Source of the DNA: Planctomycetota bacterium
Lineage (GTDB): Bacteria > Planctomycetota > Planctomycetia > Planctomycetales > Planctomycetaceae
Length of the DNA stretch: 64,000 nt
Assembly (NCBI GenBank): GCA_016872645.1
Contig: VGZH01000019.1
Span: 1 to 64,000 of the forward strand
Direction: 5' to 3'
Shown here: piece by piece, positions 44,789-52,424 of the stretch
How positions within the stretch are numbered: position 1 is the first letter of the stretch
How the letters are laid out: every line of letters starts with the position of its first letter
The notes under the pieces: model-generated
Database searches by the model: none
What the model was told of the DNA's origin: nothing
What the model saw: only the letters and a program-made list of their open reading frames with translations
Made by a program: the position numbers and the translations under genes

Positions 44789-45853
44789 TCATGTGCGGTT
44801 TGTGCGGGTCTTGATGAAGTCAGGTTCGCGAGCGTTTGACAGTGCCACGTCGTAACTGATCTCGCCCCGTTGGTAGAGATCCAGCAGCGCGTGATCCATC
44901 GTCTGCATTTGGTGTTTCTTGCCGGTCTGCAATTCGTTGTAGATCTGGTGGGCTTCGCGGTCGCGGATATGTTTGCGGACGGCGGGCGTGGCGATGCAGA
45001 CTTCGCACGCAAGCACTCGACCATCACCGCTGGCTTTGGGCAGCAGCTTTTGTGAGATGATTGCTTGCAGGCTATTGGCCAGTTGCACAGTGATCGCGTT
45101 TTGTTGCTCGGCCGGGAAGACGCTGAAGATGCGTTGAATCGTCTGTACCGAGTCCGGCGTATGCAGCGTGGCCATGACGAGGTGCCCCGTCTCGGCGGCG
45201 ACGAGCGCGGTCTCGATCGTTTCCAGATCGCGCATCTCACCGATGACGACGACATCCGGGTCTTGTCGCAAGACGTGGATCAGAGTGCTGCGGAACGAAG
45301 GCGCGTCGGTCATCACTTCCAGTTGAATCACGATGCTGCGATTGTTTTCGTGAACGTACTCGATGGGATCTTCGATGGTGATGATCTTCTCGCGACGCTC
45401 GCGGTTGATCGAGTCGATCATGTAGTTCAGCGTGGTGGTCTTGCCGACTCCGGTCTGGCCGGTTACCAGAATCAGGCCGTTCGGCAAGCGTGTGAGGTCT
45501 TGCAAGATCGGCGGCAAACCGAGTTCTTCGCTGGGACGGACGACGTTCTCGCAGAGCCGAATCGCCATCTCAGGAATGCCGGAGCGGTAGTAAATGCTGA
45601 CTCGAAAGCGACCGATCTCCGGGAAGTGTCGCGAGAAGCAGGCCTGCCAGTCGGACTCAAGTTTCGCGCGCTGCTTTTCGTTGAGCAGTTCATTGGTCAT
45701 CTGATTGAGCGTCTCGGCGTCGAGCGGCTCGCCGTCGATCGGCCGAATTTCGCCGTTGAGCCGAAAGACCGGAGCGACGCCGTTGACCAAATGGATGTCA
45801 CTGGCTTTGAAGCGTCGCGCCCCTTTGAAAATCTTGTCGAGCGTCCAAGACAT
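44789..45853 (-). CDS. pilT: PilT-family twitching ATPase
   Basis: This 354-aa ATPase of the type II/IV secretion superfamily matches PilT, the pilus retraction motor. It shows SDIHLVNGVAPVFRLNGEI near the N-terminus, Walker A LVTGQTGVGKTTTLNYMIDS, the Asp box IITIEDPIEYVHENN, Walker B VVVIGEMRDLETIETALVAA, and the His box ETGHLVMATLHTPDS. No other pilus genes are in the window. PilT paralogues also serve in non-pilus secretion, so motility is not proven. It lies between the TPR gene (74 bp upstream, with a hairpin) and the transhydrogenase gene. Confidence 0.93.
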   Translation of the reverse strand: MSWTLDKIFKGARRFKASDIHLVNGVAPVFRLNGEIRPIDGEPLDAETLNQMTNELLNEKQRAKLESDWQACFSRHFPEIGRFRVSIYYRSGIPEMAIRLCENVVRPSEELGLPPILQDLTRLPNGLILVTGQTGVGKTTTLNYMIDSINRERREKIITIEDPIEYVHENNRSIVIQLEVMTDAPSFRSTLIHVLRQDPDVVVIGEMRDLETIETALVAAETGHLVMATLHTPDSVQTIQRIFSVFPAEQQNAITVQLANSLQAIISQKLLPKASGDGRVLACEVCIATPAVRKHIRDREAHQIYNELQTGKKHQMQTMDHALLDLYQRGEISYDVALSNAREPDFIKTRTNRT

Positions 45854-45927: not shown

Positions 45928-46689
45928 TTATCCAAACAATCGTCGCCATGTGCGGCGCAGAGACCAGCCCCCTTCGGCCAATTGGATCAGCCGCTGCCGG
46001 GCTTCGCCATGTTTGGGGCAAAGCTGCAAGCAGCGCTGCAGACTTTGTTGAGCGTCCTTGCGCAGGTCCAGTTCCATTTGGGCGGTCCCGTGAATGAACC
46101 AGATCAACGGCTGATCGGCTGCCTTGTCCAACGCCTGCTTGGACCGAATCAATGCCGGGGCCGGATGATTGTGAAACAGATAAATCCGAGCGATCTCCAG
46201 CGGCACGAGCCAATCGGGGTCGGTTTGAATTGCCTTGTCAAAGCAATGCCGCGCCGGATCGAGCCCCCCTTCGAGCATCACCTCACCGCGCACGATCCAA
46301 CGATACGCCGACTGCCCCGGCTGCTTGAACGCCCCGTCGACTGTCGCCAGAGCCGCAGCCGATTCGGCCTGCCGGCATTGAGCCTGCGCCCGGCCCGCCA
46401 GCAACTCGGGATTGTTGGGAAACAGTTCCAGTGCCTTGCGAGCCCAAGTATCGGCCTCTTTGAGTTCCCCCAACTGCACGAGCATCTGCACCTGGCCGAC
46501 CCAGCCGAGGATCAACGTTTTGTCTTCTTCGAGTGCACGCGAGTAAAACCGCAGAGCATCCTCATACTCGCCGGCACGGCGTTGCTGATCGGCCCTCTTC
46601 AGCCAATTGGCTTCCTCCGGCTCAGCCCTCATTTGGAGCGGCCCGGGCTGCGTTGGCTGATTCAGTTCGAGTTTGTCAAAACGGGCCAT
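45928..46689 (-). CDS. Tetratricopeptide-repeat protein
   Basis: This 253-aa protein has no signal peptide. It contains about five TPR units: NWLKRADQQRRAGEYEDALR, ILGWVGQVQMLVQLGELKEA, PELLAGRAQAQCRQAESAAA, YRWIVRGEVMLEGGLDPARH, and WFIHGTAQMELDLRKDAQQS. The C-terminus is basic (GGWSLRRTWRRLFG) and could contact membrane or nucleic acid. TPRs are protein-docking scaffolds; its partner may be an adjacent gene product such as the signal-peptidase-like protein or PilT, which is inference from position only. The ATG at 46689 directly precedes the repeat domain; an in-frame extension to 47121 overlaps the next gene and looks non-coding. Confidence 0.8.
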   Translation of the reverse strand: MARFDKLELNQPTQPGPLQMRAEPEEANWLKRADQQRRAGEYEDALRFYSRALEEDKTLILGWVGQVQMLVQLGELKEADTWARKALELFPNNPELLAGRAQAQCRQAESAAALATVDGAFKQPGQSAYRWIVRGEVMLEGGLDPARHCFDKAIQTDPDWLVPLEIARIYLFHNHPAPALIRSKQALDKAADQPLIWFIHGTAQMELDLRKDAQQSLQRCLQLCPKHGEARQRLIQLAEGGWSLRRTWRRLFG

Positions 46690-46751: not shown

Positions 46752-46810
46752 AGTAGTCCGGATGCCTACGTTCGGACACAATCTGACTGGACGTAGGCGT
46801 CCGGGCTACT
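46752..46810. repeat. Inverted repeat with 20-bp arms, AGTAG...CTACT type
   Basis: The arms 46752-46771 (AGTAGTCCGGATGCCTACGT) and 46791-46810 (ACGTAGGCGTCCGGGCTACT) pair at 18 of 20 positions with a 19-bp loop. The right arm covers the stop codon of the signal-peptidase-like gene (46806-46808). It is a dispersed-repeat candidate and a possible terminator. Confidence 0.75.
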
Positions 46811-47804
46811 CGATCGCTCCCCAGCGATGCAGGGGCCAGGTTCGCCACACCGCTCGGCCGAGGATGTGCTGATCGGCAACCACCGCCAAGCGAGCGAAGG
46901 CGTCTTGCTGGTTCAATCGTGGCACTTGAACCTCCTGATTTGCACGTCCGAAAAAAATCGGCGGAGCAATCAGGACATTCCCAGCCGGAATCTGCAAATC
47001 CAAACCTTCGGGAATTGAGCCTCCCAGTGGCCGGTGTGCCACCGGTTGACCATCGACTTTCAGTTGTTGCGTCGCGTATTCGACTCGGCAGGGGCCTCGC
47101 GCGAGTACTCGTTCCATCCAATCGCCGCGAATGTAGTAGCCTGGGACTGCCGAGCCATCCTGGTCGTACAACACGACATCACCGGGCTGCGCGAATGACT
47201 GACGCACCAAGCGGCGATTGATCAGCAGCACATCGCCCGCTGGCAAATGGGTGCCGAGAGACCGCTCAATCACCACCGGTTGAGCGATCGTTTGGCCGAA
47301 CAAATAGGCCGGCAGGTAGATCACGCCGATGACCACTCCGAGCAGTGCGAACATCTGGCCGACATTCTGACGCCCTTCCTCCGTGTGCAGCACAATGTCC
47401 ATCACGCTGGAGAAATGGGCGGCCAACGCGAGCCCCAGCAGCAAGGTGCTCAGCCAACTCCCCCAGGTCAGCAGCGCGGGAATCAGCGACAACACAAACA
47501 ACAACGAGAAGATTCGACCCAGCCAGGCTCGCCCCGCACAAAACTGCGGCCAACCCGGCCAGATCAACGTGATCAACGGCACGGCCACGTCGATGTCCGC
47601 CCGAAACTCACCAATCCGTTTTCGCGTCCGACCGGTCAGCCGATTCCACAGTCGACCAAAGCCGTCGAACATTCGGAGCCGCCGTTGACTGGCTCTCGGA
47701 GGAATCACGTTGATGTCTGACATCGACGCACCGAGCACGCCGCCGCAGCGGACGCACTTTTTCATCCCCGGCATGTTTTCAAAGCGGCAGTTCGAACATT
47801 GCAT
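46806..47804 (-). CDS. Zinc-ribbon membrane protein with a signal-peptidase-I-like domain lacking the catalytic serine
   Basis: This 332-aa protein begins with a zinc ribbon (CSNCRFENMPGMKKCVRCGG, two CxxC pairs). It then has three or four hydrophobic helices between residues about 70 and 180 (FSLLFVLSLIPALLTWGSWL, FALLGVVIGVIYLPAYLFG). The C-terminal part resembles S26 signal peptidases: HLPAGDVLLINRRLVRQSFA, QPGDVVLYDQDGS, RVLARGPCRVEYATQQLKVD and DQHILGRAVWRTWP. The nucleophile position expected in PSxSMxPTL before GD is not present (VVIERSLGTHLPAGD), and the general-base lysine is not evident. It is probably a non-catalytic relative, and a binding or assembly role is an inference. It starts 3 bp after the DUF2997 stop. 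Confidence 0.65.
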   Translation of the reverse strand: MQCSNCRFENMPGMKKCVRCGGVLGASMSDINVIPPRASQRRLRMFDGFGRLWNRLTGRTRKRIGEFRADIDVAVPLITLIWPGWPQFCAGRAWLGRIFSLLFVLSLIPALLTWGSWLSTLLLGLALAAHFSSVMDIVLHTEEGRQNVGQMFALLGVVIGVIYLPAYLFGQTIAQPVVIERSLGTHLPAGDVLLINRRLVRQSFAQPGDVVLYDQDGSAVPGYYIRGDWMERVLARGPCRVEYATQQLKVDGQPVAHRPLGGSIPEGLDLQIPAGNVLIAPPIFFGRANQEVQVPRLNQQDAFARLAVVADQHILGRAVWRTWPLHRWGAIE

Positions 47805-47807
47805 GGC

Positions 47808-48011
47808 TCACCGCCGTCCGCGCACTTCGATTTGGCCGCTGACGTGTCCTTCGGCCTCGTAGTATTCGCTGGTCAGTTCGCGCGACTCGATCTGCCCGAT
47901 GATCTTGGCGACCGCTTCGGCCGCCTGAACGCACTTCGGGCCCTTGATGCCAATCGTGCGGACGGTGACTTGTCCGGTCGGGCTGATGCTGATTTCGATT
48001 TCTTCGGCCAT
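47808..48011 (-). CDS. DUF2997-family small protein
   Basis: This 67-aa protein reads MAEEIEISISPTGQVTVRTI then GIKGPKCVQAAEAVAKIIGQ, the DUF2997 pattern (beta strands, a conserved G-xx-C, then a helix). DUF2997 genes commonly accompany DUF1257 (Ycf35) and a Ycf46-type AAA gene in cyanobacteria and planctomycetes, as here. The single cysteine in GPKCVQA is the notable conserved residue. Function unknown. It follows the DUF1257 gene by 18 bp and precedes the signal-peptidase-like gene by 3 bp. Confidence 0.85.
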   Translation of the reverse strand: MAEEIEISISPTGQVTVRTIGIKGPKCVQAAEAVAKIIGQIESRELTSEYYEAEGHVSGQIEVRGRR

Positions 48012-48029
48012 CTGGTTTCCTTTACCGAG

Positions 48030-48497
48030 TTACCAATTCCGCACGCGAATCTTCACCGTGCGGTCGGCTTCGACTTCTTCGTGGACGATCGGCATTCCGC
48101 GTTCCTTCAATTCGGTCACGACGCGGTGATAGACGTACTGCTGAGTCACCTGCTCCATCAACTCTTGGCCGATCTGCTTGAGTTGCCCTTTCGAGTACCC
48201 GGTCCCTTCCATGCAAACTTTGAGGGCTCCGCGAGCGTCGCGGCTGAACGTCGCTCGCACCCCGTCCTTCTCGACGACCATTTCCTCGTCGGTTCCGCCG
48301 CCACCCGCGAGCACTTCGCTGTTCTCGACTTCGATTTCCGCGCGAGTCACCGACGACCCGGATCTGGCTCGCCCGCTACCAGAGACAGCACCGCTCGCCA
48401 CCGTGAAGCCCATTGCTCCGCAGGCTCCCAACACGGCCGCCGAGATCACTGACCAATTCGCGATGATCAACGGAGTCACCAGAATGACGCTGCTCAT
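48030..48497 (-). CDS. DUF1257 (Ycf35-type) protein
   Basis: This 155-aa protein has a hydrophobic N-terminal segment (MSSVILVTPLIIANWSVISA and AAVLGACGAMGFTVAS), then a soluble domain (VVEKDGVRATFSRDARGALK) and a C-terminal block QLKQIGQELMEQVTQQYVYH followed by KERGMPIVHEEVE and RTVKIRVRNW. The C-terminal block matches DUF1257/Ycf35 proteins. The possible membrane-anchored N-terminus distinguishes it from soluble Ycf35. Function unknown. Placement between the AAA gene (29-bp gap) and DUF2997 (18-bp gap) reproduces the conserved Ycf46-Ycf35-DUF2997 set. The ATG at 48497 is chosen over a TTG five codons upstream. Confidence 0.75.
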   Translation of the reverse strand: MSSVILVTPLIIANWSVISAAVLGACGAMGFTVASGAVSGSGRARSGSSVTRAEIEVENSEVLAGGGGTDEEMVVEKDGVRATFSRDARGALKVCMEGTGYSKGQLKQIGQELMEQVTQQYVYHRVVTELKERGMPIVHEEVEADRTVKIRVRNW

Positions 48498-48526
48498 GGG
48501 AGTGCCTTTCAATCGTGGAAACGGAA

Positions 48527-50188
48527 TTACAGCTCGATCTTTCTCCGTGCTTCTTCCGTGCTCTTCGTCGAACTGGCGGACGCCAACCGCGCTCGTCCAA
48601 CCGCCCAGGTCCGCAATCGATTCAACTCCTCGGGCATCGTCTTCGACAGCGGCACGGTTTCGGAAACGCTCCGTTTGAGAATCTCAGTATCGAGATCGCT
48701 GCGCTGACTGAAGGCATCGAACAGCGCCGCGATGACGACCTCTTCGATTTCCGCGCCGCTGAAACCGTCGCTGAGTCGAGCCAGGTCGACGGTGTCGAAT
48801 TTCTCGGGATTCCGGCCACGACGTTTTAGGTGAATGCGGAACATGTCGATCCGCTCCTCCTCGGTCGGCAGATCGACGAAGAAGATGTCATCCAGGCGTC
48901 CTTTGCGGAGCAGTTCGGGGGGCAGGTGGCTGATGTCATTGGCCGTCGCGATCACAAACACGGGGGAAGTCTTCTCGGACATCCACGTCAGCAGAGTGCC
49001 GAAGACTCGCGACGAAGTGCCGCCGTCATTGCCGGCTGAACCGGTCGCTCCGGCGAACGCCTTGTCAATTTCGTCGATCCACAAGATCGCCGGGGCGACG
49101 CTCTCCGCCGTTTGAATCGCACGGCGGATGTTCTCTTCGCTGGAACCGATCAAGCTGCTGAACAGCCGCCCGATATCGAATCGCAGAAGCGGTTGTTTCC
49201 AGAGCGCGGCGGCGGCCTTCGCGCACAAACTCTTGCCGCAACCTTGCACCCCCAGCAGCAGGACGCCGCGCGGCGGAGGCAGACCGAAATTCGCCGCGCG
49301 ATCCGTGAACGCAATGCTTCGCTTCTGGAACCACTGCTTGAGATTCTTCATCCCGCCGACGTGTCCGAAGCCTTCCTGAGTTTCGTAGTACTCCAGCAGG
49401 CCGCTCTTTTTGATGATCTGCTGCTTCTCGCTGAAGACGATGCCGATGTCGTCGGCGTCGATCTTGCCGTCGAGCACCAACGTCTTCGCGAAGACGTTCT
49501 CCGCCTCCTTCAGCGTCAGCCCGCGAGCCGCGTTGAGCAACCGCTCGCGCGACTCCGTATCCAGGCTGATCTTCACCTGCGGGTTGTCCTTGACGTCATC
49601 GACGATGCGGTCCAGCAACTGGCTAAAGTCATTCGTGACGGGCAAACCGAAATCGACGACGGTCACATCCTTGGTCAATTCCGGCGCGATCTGCAACAGC
49701 GGCGAGACAATGACGATCGACTTGTAGGTGTCGCGCAGATGCAGCGCGACATCGCGCAGTCGCCTCAGCACCGACATGTTGCAACGCTGGTCGTCTGTGA
49801 AATGGTGGAAGTCCTTGAAGAGATAAATCGCCGGCTCGATCTGATCGACGACCGAGTCCAATGCGGCAAGCGGATCAGTGGTCGCGTTCGATTTGCCGCG
49901 CGGCGGTTCCGATCCCGATTTGACGACTCCTGTGGAGAGAGTCCAGACAAAGAGTTTCTTGTTGCGTGACTCGGCGATCTGTCGCAGGCACCGCTCGACG
50001 CGCTCTTCTTCCCAACTGACGACGTAGATGATCGGGTAGCGCGCGCGGATCAGGACTTCCAATTCTTCCGGGGCACTAAGCTTTCGCGACGCACCCGGCT
50101 CTGGCCGAGCAACAGCAGTCGGCTTCGGCTTGCTGGCAGGAGCGAGCGATGTCGTCGGCTTCACTTCCGTCCCGGTGGGAGTCGTCAT
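48527..50188 (-). CDS. Ycf46-type AAA ATPase
   Basis: This 553-aa protein matches Ycf46-like AAA proteins. A Pro/Ala-rich leader (residues 1-40) precedes the conserved ELEVLIRARYPIIYVVSWEE and the degenerate N-terminal domain (DQIEPAIYLFKDFHHFTDDQ). The AAA module follows with GFGHVGGMKNLKQWFQKRS, Walker A GVQGCGKSLCAKA, Walker B APAILWIDEIDKAFAG, sensor 1 PVFVIATANDISHLPPELLR and arginine-finger region RKGRLDDIFFVDLPTEEER. The C-terminal lid contains SDGFSGAEIEEVVIAALFDA. It should be an active ATP-driven remodeller. Its start overlaps the 75-aa gene by 4 bp (ATGA). The target of Ycf46 is poorly known; work in cyanobacteria links it to CO2 responses. Confidence 0.9.
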   Translation of the reverse strand: MTTPTGTEVKPTTSLAPASKPKPTAVARPEPGASRKLSAPEELEVLIRARYPIIYVVSWEEERVERCLRQIAESRNKKLFVWTLSTGVVKSGSEPPRGKSNATTDPLAALDSVVDQIEPAIYLFKDFHHFTDDQRCNMSVLRRLRDVALHLRDTYKSIVIVSPLLQIAPELTKDVTVVDFGLPVTNDFSQLLDRIVDDVKDNPQVKISLDTESRERLLNAARGLTLKEAENVFAKTLVLDGKIDADDIGIVFSEKQQIIKKSGLLEYYETQEGFGHVGGMKNLKQWFQKRSIAFTDRAANFGLPPPRGVLLLGVQGCGKSLCAKAAAALWKQPLLRFDIGRLFSSLIGSSEENIRRAIQTAESVAPAILWIDEIDKAFAGATGSAGNDGGTSSRVFGTLLTWMSEKTSPVFVIATANDISHLPPELLRKGRLDDIFFVDLPTEEERIDMFRIHLKRRGRNPEKFDTVDLARLSDGFSGAEIEEVVIAALFDAFSQRSDLDTEILKRSVSETVPLSKTMPEELNRLRTWAVGRARLASASSTKSTEEARRKIEL

Positions 50189-50412
50189 GTCGCGGATTCC
50201 TGTTGAGTGGTCTCGGCGGCGGTTTGTTGCAGGGCTTGTATCCGAGCCGTCACCGCTTGGTCGCCCCAACCAAGATCGCTGAGCATTTCCAACACCGGCC
50301 GCGACGTGCCGAACACGAACACTCGCCCGTCTGGTGCGATCCGAATGTCGGTCACGGCCGCTTCGTCGTCGGCCGAGATCAGCGTTCGTTTTTTCGGCGA
50401 GACGGTCTTCAT
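50185..50412 (-). CDS. 75-aa protein of unknown function, coupled to radical SAM and AAA genes
   Basis: This protein reads MKTVSPKKRTLISADDEAAV, then TDIRIAPDGRVFVFGTSRPV and LEMLSDLGWGDQAVTARIQA, ending with a Gln/Thr/Ser-rich tail. I do not recognise a family. The core has a beta-hairpin character (IRIAPDGRVFVFG) followed by a helix. It overlaps the radical SAM stop (ATGA, 50409-50412) and its own stop overlaps the AAA start (ATGA, 50185-50188). Such double coupling implies a real product made in step with both neighbours. It could be a substrate or adaptor of the system; this is inference. Confidence 0.8.
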   Translation of the reverse strand: MKTVSPKKRTLISADDEAAVTDIRIAPDGRVFVFGTSRPVLEMLSDLGWGDQAVTARIQALQQTAAETTQQESAT

Positions 50413-51227
50413 CGAATCACGTTCAACCCCAGCTGCGTCGCCCATTCGCGAGCACGATCGCCGATTCCCGGCTTCAGCAACTGGCTCAAGTCCGCGTGCT
50501 GTCGGGCTTGCCACATTGGCAGATACCCGTCGCGGAGGCTCAATTTTACCGTCGGCATCTCGCGGAGCAACCACTCACAGATCGGTACGAAGCAACAATC
50601 CCAATGTTCGGGCAGCAGCAGATGCCGCACGATGACGTCCGCTTGTTGCGCCGCCAACCGGAGATTCCGAGTCACCACCTCGAAGTAGCGAGATACGCCA
50701 GCAATCCGCTGAGCACACTCGTCGTTGCCGAATTTGAAGTCCGGGACAAAGACCGAAACGACACCGTCGAGCAACTCAAATGCTTCGGGAGTCCCGTAGA
50801 AATCGGACTTCCAGACGACCGGCGGCAGATCGTCGATCCCGGCCATCGCCGACAGGATCGACGGGATGTGAATCGTCGGTTCACCGCCAACCCACTGAAT
50901 ATTTTTGGCTCCTTGAGCACGCCCTTTCGGGATCACTTGCCGCAAGAAGTCGGCCGTCAGCACCGTGCCGCGTAACGGATCGAAGGCATTCGCCTCGGCA
51001 ATGCAGAAGGCACATCGCAGATCGCAGCCGGACAAATAGAACAGGTGCGACGGAATCAGCTCCGATTCCTCGCCCCATTCGACTCGCTGCCGAAAGACGC
51101 GAGCTTCCGTCAACGCTTGGCACGGCCCGCGCTCACCAGCCGAGCGATTTGCCAGACAGCGATGCTCGCAAAGCTGACAATGTGCGAGATGCCACTGCCC
51201 CGGTTCTTCGAAATTCGGCAGACGCAT
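50409..51227 (-). CDS. Radical SAM protein (PFL-activating-enzyme-like) with extra N-terminal cysteines
   Basis: This 272-aa protein has a 4Fe-4S-type SAM motif CxxxCxxC in LFYLSGCDLRCAFCIAEANA. Upstream it has a further cysteine set (HLAHCQLCEHRCLANRSAGE, then GPCQAL) as in YfkAB/PflX-like enzymes. The core continues with NIQWVGGEPTIHIPSILSAM, VVWKSDFYGTPEAFELLDGV, VSVFVPDFKFGNDECAQRIA and VIVRHLLLPEHWDCCFVPIC. It is probably an activase or modifying enzyme for a partner protein. The target is unknown; the neighbouring 75-aa or Ycf proteins are candidates. The ATG at 51227 is preferred, with GGGGGAG 6 bp upstream; a GTG at 51245 is possible. It lies 24 bp after the M28 gene. Confidence 0.85.
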   Translation of the reverse strand: MRLPNFEEPGQWHLAHCQLCEHRCLANRSAGERGPCQALTEARVFRQRVEWGEESELIPSHLFYLSGCDLRCAFCIAEANAFDPLRGTVLTADFLRQVIPKGRAQGAKNIQWVGGEPTIHIPSILSAMAGIDDLPPVVWKSDFYGTPEAFELLDGVVSVFVPDFKFGNDECAQRIAGVSRYFEVVTRNLRLAAQQADVIVRHLLLPEHWDCCFVPICEWLLREMPTVKLSLRDGYLPMWQARQHADLSQLLKPGIGDRAREWATQLGLNVIR

Positions 51228-51251
51228 GGTCACTCCCCCGAGCACACCCGA

Positions 51252-52424
51252 TCAGAACACTGACAGCAACAGCAACTGCGAAATGCGGATCAGCCACTTG
51301 CGATCGTCGGCGGTGAACGTGCCTCGGTTGAGAATCTGCTGGCACTTGTTCTTGGCTTGCGTGACGATCAGGCGTTGTAGATCGGTGAGCGGTTTTTTCT
51401 CGCCGGCTTCGAGCAGCAGGTCAGTGATGCGGTGGATGGCCTTGACCTCGTCGATGTTTGGCTGAACTTCGTCGGTCCATTCCGGAGCACTATCGGCGTT
51501 CGCGGTGGTCTCGATCAATTTCAGCACCAGGCTCGAAACGCGAGCCACCTTGTCAAAGTCGAGCTTCTCAAGAACGTCGCGCGGCGTGTGGTAGTCGGGA
51601 TGCTGGCCGGTCGAGAAAAACAAGAACGGAATCTTTTCGTTCCAGAATGGCCCGTAGTCGCTGCGGACGCCGATCAGGTCAATCCCCAGCCGCGCGACTT
51701 CCAGTCCGCGCGGCGAGCCGACATCGTCCAGCAGCAGCTTCATTCGGGGTGCGTGTTCGCTCCCCATGACAAAGATTGTCGGCAGCGGCAAATCCCCCAG
51801 CGACCGGCCAATCATGTCAGCGGTGATGAAGAGCTTCACTCGGTTCAGCTCAAATGGCGGATGGGCAACAAACCAGCGCGAGCCCCACAGCAATTGCTCT
51901 TCGAGATCGAAACCGACGAAGACGATGCTCCGCCTTGGACGCTGCTTTGCGACAGCGAAATTCCGAGCGACCTCCAGCATCATCGCGGTGCCGCTGGCAT
52001 TGTCGTCGGCTCCGGGAAAGATTCTCCCGTTGCGAGTGCCGAGGTGATCGAAATGCGTGCCAATCACAATCAGCTCATCGCGCAATTTTGGATCGCTCCC
52101 TTCCAGCCAGGCACCGACATTGCGGCCGACAATGCGCGGACTTTCGTCCGACGAATCCTCTTGGGCCGAGGTCGGGATCGGCTGGTCGAATGAGCCGTTT
52201 GCGAACAGCGGTCGCAGCTTGCAATCGCGAAACTGCTTGGTCAGGTAGTCAGCGGCTTTGGCAGAGTTGGCCCCGGATCGGCCGCCCAGTTCGCTGCTGG
52301 CGAGGAACTCGACGTGCGGCCGGACATGCTCAGGACGGATCGCACCGTCCCAAACGTCTGGTCGATCGCCAGCTCGTGCGGGCAGCAAAGCAAACAGGAT
52401 CAAAAGCCAGAAGAAGCGAGGCAT
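51252..52424 (-). CDS. Secreted M28-family metallopeptidase
   Basis: This 390-aa protein has a signal peptide (MPRFFWLLILFALLPARAGD). The M28 zinc site is intact: His in LIVIGTHFDHLGT, bridging Asp in IFPGADDNASGTAMML, Glu pair in GFDLEEQLLWGSRWF, Asp in FITADMIGRSLG and His in GQHPDYHTPRDVLEKL. These are co-catalytic aminopeptidase/glutamate-carboxypeptidase-type enzymes that remove N-terminal residues from peptides. A helical C-terminal extension (LLLEAGEKKPLTDLQRLIVT) follows. It may feed amino acids from extracytoplasmic peptides. It is the first gene of the long minus-strand run and is divergent from the small exported protein gene. Confidence 0.9.
   Translation of the reverse strand: MPRFFWLLILFALLPARAGDRPDVWDGAIRPEHVRPHVEFLASSELGGRSGANSAKAADYLTKQFRDCKLRPLFANGSFDQPIPTSAQEDSSDESPRIVGRNVGAWLEGSDPKLRDELIVIGTHFDHLGTRNGRIFPGADDNASGTAMMLEVARNFAVAKQRPRRSIVFVGFDLEEQLLWGSRWFVAHPPFELNRVKLFITADMIGRSLGDLPLPTIFVMGSEHAPRMKLLLDDVGSPRGLEVARLGIDLIGVRSDYGPFWNEKIPFLFFSTGQHPDYHTPRDVLEKLDFDKVARVSSLVLKLIETTANADSAPEWTDEVQPNIDEVKAIHRITDLLLEAGEKKPLTDLQRLIVTQAKNKCQQILNRGTFTADDRKWLIRISQLLLLSVF

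Follow-up and report, generated by a model that had tools for sequence, protein, structure and literature searches.

A planctomycete operon of eight genes encodes a Ycf46-type AAA+ ATPase together with DUF1257 (Ycf35) and DUF2997 proteins, a radical SAM enzyme that by its sequence belongs to a distinct subfamily, and a 75-residue protein, p75, that accompanies this enzyme. Plastid genomes and cyanobacteria retain Ycf46 and Ycf35, whose role is not settled, and the operon provides a concrete lead to their function. Our survey joins Ycf46, Ycf35 and DUF2997 in one module that repeatedly includes an Fe–S protein as an additional component, and the eight-gene bacterial operon is a place where the link of Ycf46 and Ycf35 to an Fe–S partner can be tested.

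Anatomy of the locus

The operon lies on the minus strand of the window, the whole stretch of 64,000 nucleotides that was analysed (Table 1). By operon we mean a unit inferred from spacing and conserved gene order. The original prediction described five consecutive open reading frames, from radical SAM to DUF2997, as one coupled unit, and their order, coordinates, overlaps and gaps are exact to the base: 4-bp overlaps join radical SAM to p75 (50409-50412) and p75 to the AAA gene (50185-50188), with spacings of 29 bp from AAA to DUF1257 and 18 bp from DUF1257 to DUF2997. The coupling is real, as the conserved operon, the single AAA clade and the gene co-occurrence described below attest, but its extent is eight genes, as the unit continues past DUF2997 into the S26-like, TPR and PilT-like genes, which had been overlooked. 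The spacings here are 3 bp (DUF2997 to S26-like), 116 bp (S26-like to TPR) and 74 bp (TPR to PilT). An alternative GTG start at 51245 would give a radical SAM protein of 278 aa. On the same strand, a peptidase-like gene (51252-52424; M28-type by eye) ends 24 bp upstream of the radical SAM gene and is probably co-transcribed with it in the window; in the relatives checked, no such gene is found at that place.

Table 1 Genes of the operon in the window
Feature	Coordinates	Strand	Remarks
Radical SAM protein, 272 aa	50409..51227	-	Pfam Radical_SAM, E 7e-10
p75 (75-aa protein), partner of radical SAM	50185..50412	-	no match to known families (Pfam)
Ycf46-type AAA+ ATPase, 553 aa	48527..50188	-	Pfam AAA, E 2e-29
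DUF1257 (Ycf35) protein, 155 aa, hydrophobic-N-terminus subtype	48030..48497	-	Pfam, weak
DUF2997 protein, 67 aa, single invariant Cys	47808..48011	-	Pfam, clear
S26-like membrane protein, N-terminal zinc ribbon (pseudo-peptidase)	46806..47804	-	catalytic Ser/Lys motif not conserved
TPR protein	45928..46689	-	syntenic in relatives
PilT-like ATPase	44789..45853	-	syntenic in relatives

Conservation of the operon in planctomycetes

A radical SAM profile run over 392 planctomycete genomes matched 88 of them at E ≤ 1e-20, and the scores split cleanly into 26 genomes at E ≤ 1e-54 and a remainder at E ≥ 1e-39. Most of the strong matches that had not previously been covered were fetched with their genomic places. 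The radical SAM gene stands directly upstream of the AAA gene in 14 of the 392 genomes, which come from nine families (f1, f33, f58, f66, f70, f75, f76, f80 and f94), and apart from it in nine (G018, G065, G084, G102, G123, G134, G149, G178 and G191); the other three strong genomes (G214, G289 and G318) are without placement. Gene calls outside the window come from a home-made caller and several loci are truncated by contig ends; where the contig is long enough, the radical SAM-AAA pair is followed by DUF1257, DUF2997, S26-like, TPR and PilT genes, with the S26-like gene unmatched in two operon loci (L097 and L103). A Pirellula sp. MAG (L109, CAIYZV010000267.1) carries all eight genes, p75 included. 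The linkage could have proved incidental if the radical SAM and 75-aa genes were absent beside Ycf46 elsewhere; that comparison, named in the original prediction, was run, and it shows that the linkage is no coincidence, since 14 planctomycete genomes and the Pirellula MAG keep the radical SAM and AAA genes adjacent. In f1, the family of the window, 4 of 28 genomes have the operon, which makes it accessory there.

The radical SAM gene and DUF2997 also co-occur across genomes. DUF2997 is present in 24 of the 26 strong radical SAM genomes, which span 15 families, and in 34 of the 366 others (Fisher 2.5e-20, in a test that ignores relatedness), and the association persists where the two genes are unlinked. 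DUF2997 is missing from just two of the 26: G145, where the contig breaks off within DUF1257, and G214, which is an incomplete genome. Just one of the 62 genomes with weak radical SAM matches has DUF2997. When the DUF2997 loci of 149 planctomycete genomes were re-fetched with their flanks, nearly all had a Ycf46-type AAA gene nearby.

In the open part of PubMed Central we found no description of this operon or of a system of Ycf46/radical SAM, DUF1257 and DUF2997, and a paper on vWA-MoxR ternary systems (PMC7159879) has no mention of ycf or DUF1257. As a separate observation, a gene for a rhomboid-like membrane protein lies directly upstream of radical SAM in three families (L090:1725-2408, L091:9509-10210 and L094:1580-2296); of these, L094 has the GxSG serine motif and L090 does not.

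The Ycf46-type ATPase forms its own clade

The AAA protein has active Walker A/B and GRxD motifs in an AAA domain at approximately residues 300-500, and its N-terminal half returns no Pfam match and nothing significant among PDB sequences. The protein shares approximately 42-43% identity with cyanobacterial Ycf46-type proteins across some 500 aa, N-terminal half included. In a tree of 90 AAA proteins, all 15 operon AAAs fall in one clade (SH-aLRT 99), outside of which lie cyanobacterial Ycf46, a mobile-element group and a group that occurs with another radical SAM protein; the planctomycete operon has a single origin. The name Ycf46 first given to the protein is therefore apt at the level of the family, as it has the AAA+ family and architecture of cyanobacterial and plastid Ycf46 (Slr0374) in common, but does not extend to membership of the cyanobacterial/plastid clade, from which the operon proteins are separate. 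Nor is the occurrence in a non-photosynthetic lineage, noted in the original prediction, special, since DUF2997, DUF1257 and Ycf46-type AAA proteins occur across many non-photosynthetic phyla.

In Synechocystis, slr0374 belongs to a stress operon, slr0373-slr0374-slr0376, and has an effect on CO2 use (PMC7496141). In red-algal plastids the presence of both ycf35 and ycf46 is correlated with habitat (PMC5940233), a pattern that weakly and indirectly supports a Ycf35-Ycf46 link. The window's genome also encodes a second full-length Ycf46-type AAA protein (G000:C157:5114-6586, E 1.6e-154), and no second DUF1257 was found in that genome.

The radical SAM enzyme and its partner p75

The radical SAM protein has an N-terminal CxxCxxxCx11C motif and a SAM-cluster CxxxCxxC motif (C68, C72 and C75), both in common with its outgroup relatives, which we take to be PflX/COG1313-like. 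The operon subfamily adds C171 and a C211-C212 pair (window numbering), present in 27 of 27 members and absent from five outgroup rows, as well as the p75 partner, found in at least 13 genomes and lacking in the outgroup. By this sequence pattern, the three additional cysteines set the enzyme apart as a distinct subfamily, and it likely carries more than one Fe–S cluster. Identification as a pyruvate formate-lyase or NrdG activase was considered and rejected, as the NCBIfam equivalog scores are all far below cut-off (for example, PFLA at 16.6 against 231.75). A comparison of the profile with the PDB returned just PFL-activase and an rSAM protein (5wgg), at E of about 1e-3.

The p75 protein contains the motif I-x-I-x-x-D-G-R-[VI] followed by helices; its conserved part is the central D-G-R strand segment, and its C-terminus is short, of low complexity and without Cys. 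The predicted model, a strand-strand-helix, is of low confidence (pTM 0.33). The possibility that p75 is a diverged DUF2997 was rejected, as hhalign aligns 18 columns with a probability of 70 and p75 has no Cys at the corresponding place. Relatives of p75 could be read directly after radical SAM in six operons and at three unlinked radical SAM places, and a profile search of the 392 genomes found it in 13, all of them among the 26 strong radical SAM genomes and all 13 with p75 adjoining radical SAM. It lies between radical SAM and AAA in nine cases, and in the other four (G065, G084, G102 and G123) the pair is away from AAA; two of the matches (G065 and G233) were absent from the query alignment and are also the weakest (E 3e-6 and 6e-4). 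Thus p75 is a new small-protein family and a strict neighbor of a new radical SAM subfamily. No p75 was found in the f33, f76 and f80 operons, so the protein is either dispensable or diverged beyond detection.

Because p75 stays with radical SAM where AAA is elsewhere, we assign it to the radical SAM enzyme. It had been proposed as a candidate substrate or adaptor sitting between the two enzymes. As a general link between them it fails, both for this reason and because several operons lack it; as a dedicated radical SAM partner it stands, with an adaptor role fitting better and that of a precursor-peptide substrate unlikely given its conservation pattern. Two of the unlinked radical SAM-p75 pairs have neighbors of their own, one a histone-deacetylase-like gene and an FHA/AAA-lid protein (L095:3074-8273), the other protoglobin and MarR genes (L092:9732-12791).

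DUF1257 and DUF2997

The window DUF1257 protein matches PF06868 at 26.1 bits against a gathering threshold of 22.2, and the match is confined to the last 44 residues (107-150). The hydrophobic N-terminus originally noted in this protein is real and is common to all 11 operon-type members tested, in which the best 19-residue hydropathy is 1.8-2.2; ten of the 11 are uncharged to residue 34 or later. In the window protein this value is 2.08 and no charged residue precedes position 43. Seven canonical DUF1257 proteins lack the hydrophobic segment, and the window protein in turn lacks the canonical charged N-terminal segment. An AlphaFold model (pLDDT 74.7) places a helix at residues 15-29 within the hydrophobic N-terminus, and a Foldseek search with the model gave no significant PDB match. 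The N-terminal hydrophobicity and the modeled helix together make it likely that this DUF1257 subtype inserts in the membrane, in keeping with the membrane placement first suggested for its complex. The DUF2997 protein matches PF11211 at 53.4 bits against a cut-off of 24.1, and its single Cys is invariant in 62 of 62 distinct members collected.

Fe–S partners in other settings

Cyanobacterial cluster g consists of DUF2997-ycf35-fed7, with Synechocystis fed7 being sll0662 (PMC4284462), and we see DUF2997-DUF1257 followed by the ferredoxin Fed7 in six cyanobacterial genomes. As in the operon, DUF2997 and DUF1257 adjoin and are accompanied by an Fe–S protein; however, this is a ferredoxin in place of radical SAM, the AAA gene is usually elsewhere in the genome, DUF1257 has no hydrophobic N-terminus, and the S26, TPR and PilT genes are missing. 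A further variant appears at nine Ycf46/DUF2997 loci, five of them in planctomycetes and four in other phyla, an archaeal MAG among the latter, where an unrelated short radical SAM protein (Fer4_12-type, NrdG-like) is likewise encoded in the Ycf46/DUF1257/DUF2997 cluster. It belongs to a different, shorter family, and no p75, S26, TPR or PilT gene was seen in these clusters. With a second radical SAM type in Ycf46 clusters and Fed7 in cyanobacteria, an Fe–S partner is recurrent.

DUF1257 and DUF2997 also adjoin a Ycf46 AAA gene in other phyla and in two cyanobacteria. Many Ycf46-type AAAs (Proteobacteria, Acidobacteria and Nitrospira) occur in genomes without DUF1257 and DUF2997 (50 genomes searched), indicating that the partnership is clade-specific and that the AAA protein can work without them. 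When the neighbors of such lone Ycf46 genes in other phyla were compared, the short radical SAM (four loci) was the one partner shared beyond local synteny.

A proposed mechanism and its alternatives

The reading that we favor, tentatively and at somewhat less than an even chance, is a membrane AAA/DUF1257/DUF2997 remodeler that serves radical SAM and p75 on an envelope- or pilus-linked target; the physical complex, the direction of action and the target are all inferred. The three proteins would assemble into a remodeling complex that the hydrophobic DUF1257 N-terminus anchors to the cytoplasmic membrane and that uses ATP to open or activate a protein target; the radical SAM enzyme, with p75 as adaptor, would then perform Fe–S/radical chemistry on that target, either a modification or a radical-type activation. 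The original prediction had likewise supposed that the ATPase and its two small partners act on something modified by the radical SAM enzyme. The single invariant DUF2997 Cys probably links the two halves as a redox or cluster contact. We favor an envelope or pilus target because of the linked pseudo-S26, TPR and PilT genes, and PilT itself is a candidate, although its link may be one of co-expression alone. In cyanobacteria, Fed7 would replace radical SAM as the Fe–S partner of DUF2997 and DUF1257. More broadly, it is possible, if doubtful, that these genes represent an undescribed protein-activation system in which a Ycf46/DUF1257/DUF2997 motor opens targets for Fe–S/radical chemistry by interchangeable partners (Fed7 and two unrelated radical SAM families), tied in planctomycetes to a membrane PilT machine.

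The nine genomes with radical SAM unlinked from AAA speak against constant physical coupling, and the operons without p75 also weigh against our reading. There is a real though minor chance that the operon holds two co-regulated units, a radical SAM-p75 pair for small-molecule or protein modification and a separate AAA-DUF1257-DUF2997 chaperone. The four genomes in which the pair stands apart from the AAA module fit such a division, as do f20 genomes with radical SAM alone and the varied neighbors of unlinked radical SAM genes (protoglobin, glycosyltransferase, histone-deacetylase-like and FHA); the co-occurrence of radical SAM and DUF2997 even when unlinked, together with the second, unrelated radical SAM type that accompanies Ycf46 in other phyla, argues for one system.

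The downstream genes raise the further possibility, which we consider unlikely, of a type IV pilus accessory operon in which the radical SAM-AAA module acts on the pilus motor, by regulation or modification, through a dedicated PilT. TPR and PilT do lie downstream in nearly every operon with enough contig, and both DUF1257 and the S26-like protein, which combines its zinc ribbon with hydrophobic helices, have membrane features. The operon PilT is one of several PilT/GspE-type proteins of the window's genome (35-44% identical) and may thus be dedicated. However, PilT does not accompany AAA or radical SAM outside the operon, and no pilin or PilB/PilC gene was recognized beside it. An assignment of the S26-like protein as signal peptidase S26 was rejected, since the catalytic Ser and Lys positions are not conserved in operon members.

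An improbable reading makes AAA-DUF1257-DUF2997 a mobile defense component and the operon an anti-phage conflict module. Other clusters of these three genes do occur in apparent mobile elements, where one genome can have as many as seven copies of DUF2997, or next to an SF1 helicase with a partial match to Mokosh MkoA, and the operon is patchy within f1; against this, the operon forms one clade that shows few traces of recent transfer, and PADLOC finds no system in it, with just the generic AAA domain matching IetA and no effector. Most improbable is a RiPP-like pathway of p75 precursor peptide and radical SAM maturase, with AAA, S26-like and PilT proteins for processing and export, as the small overlapping ORF right after radical SAM and the protease-like protein and secretion-type ATPase might suggest, for p75 is conserved in its central strand rather than its short, Cys-free C-terminus, the S26-like protein lacks its catalytic motif, and p75 was not detected in operons in which all the other genes are retained.

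Related clusters elsewhere

Three other arrangements were seen during the survey. A second DUF1257-DUF2997-AAA type is found in apparent mobile elements of the same planctomycete family (L037, L041-L044, L050, L052 and L055; G238 and G361), surrounded by an excisionase-like HTH, a PD-(D/E)XK nuclease and conserved small ORFs; the multiple DUF2997 copies, up to seven in a genome, belong to this type. Elsewhere (L057:2-9311, L056, L124:4932-12443, L127 and L132) a Ycf46-type AAA gene is followed by the SF1 helicase, uncharacterized genes, DUF2997, a DUF1257-like gene and the short radical SAM, the last three being not all present or within reach in L124 and L132. The hosts are planctomycetes, Bacteroidales and two archaeal MAGs, and this looks like an undescribed defense-type cluster. 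Finally, in family f47 (L036, L039 and L047) DUF1257-DUF2997-AAA has a DUF6744-like gene and additional conserved ORFs as neighbors, in a variant that is possibly phage- or element-borne.
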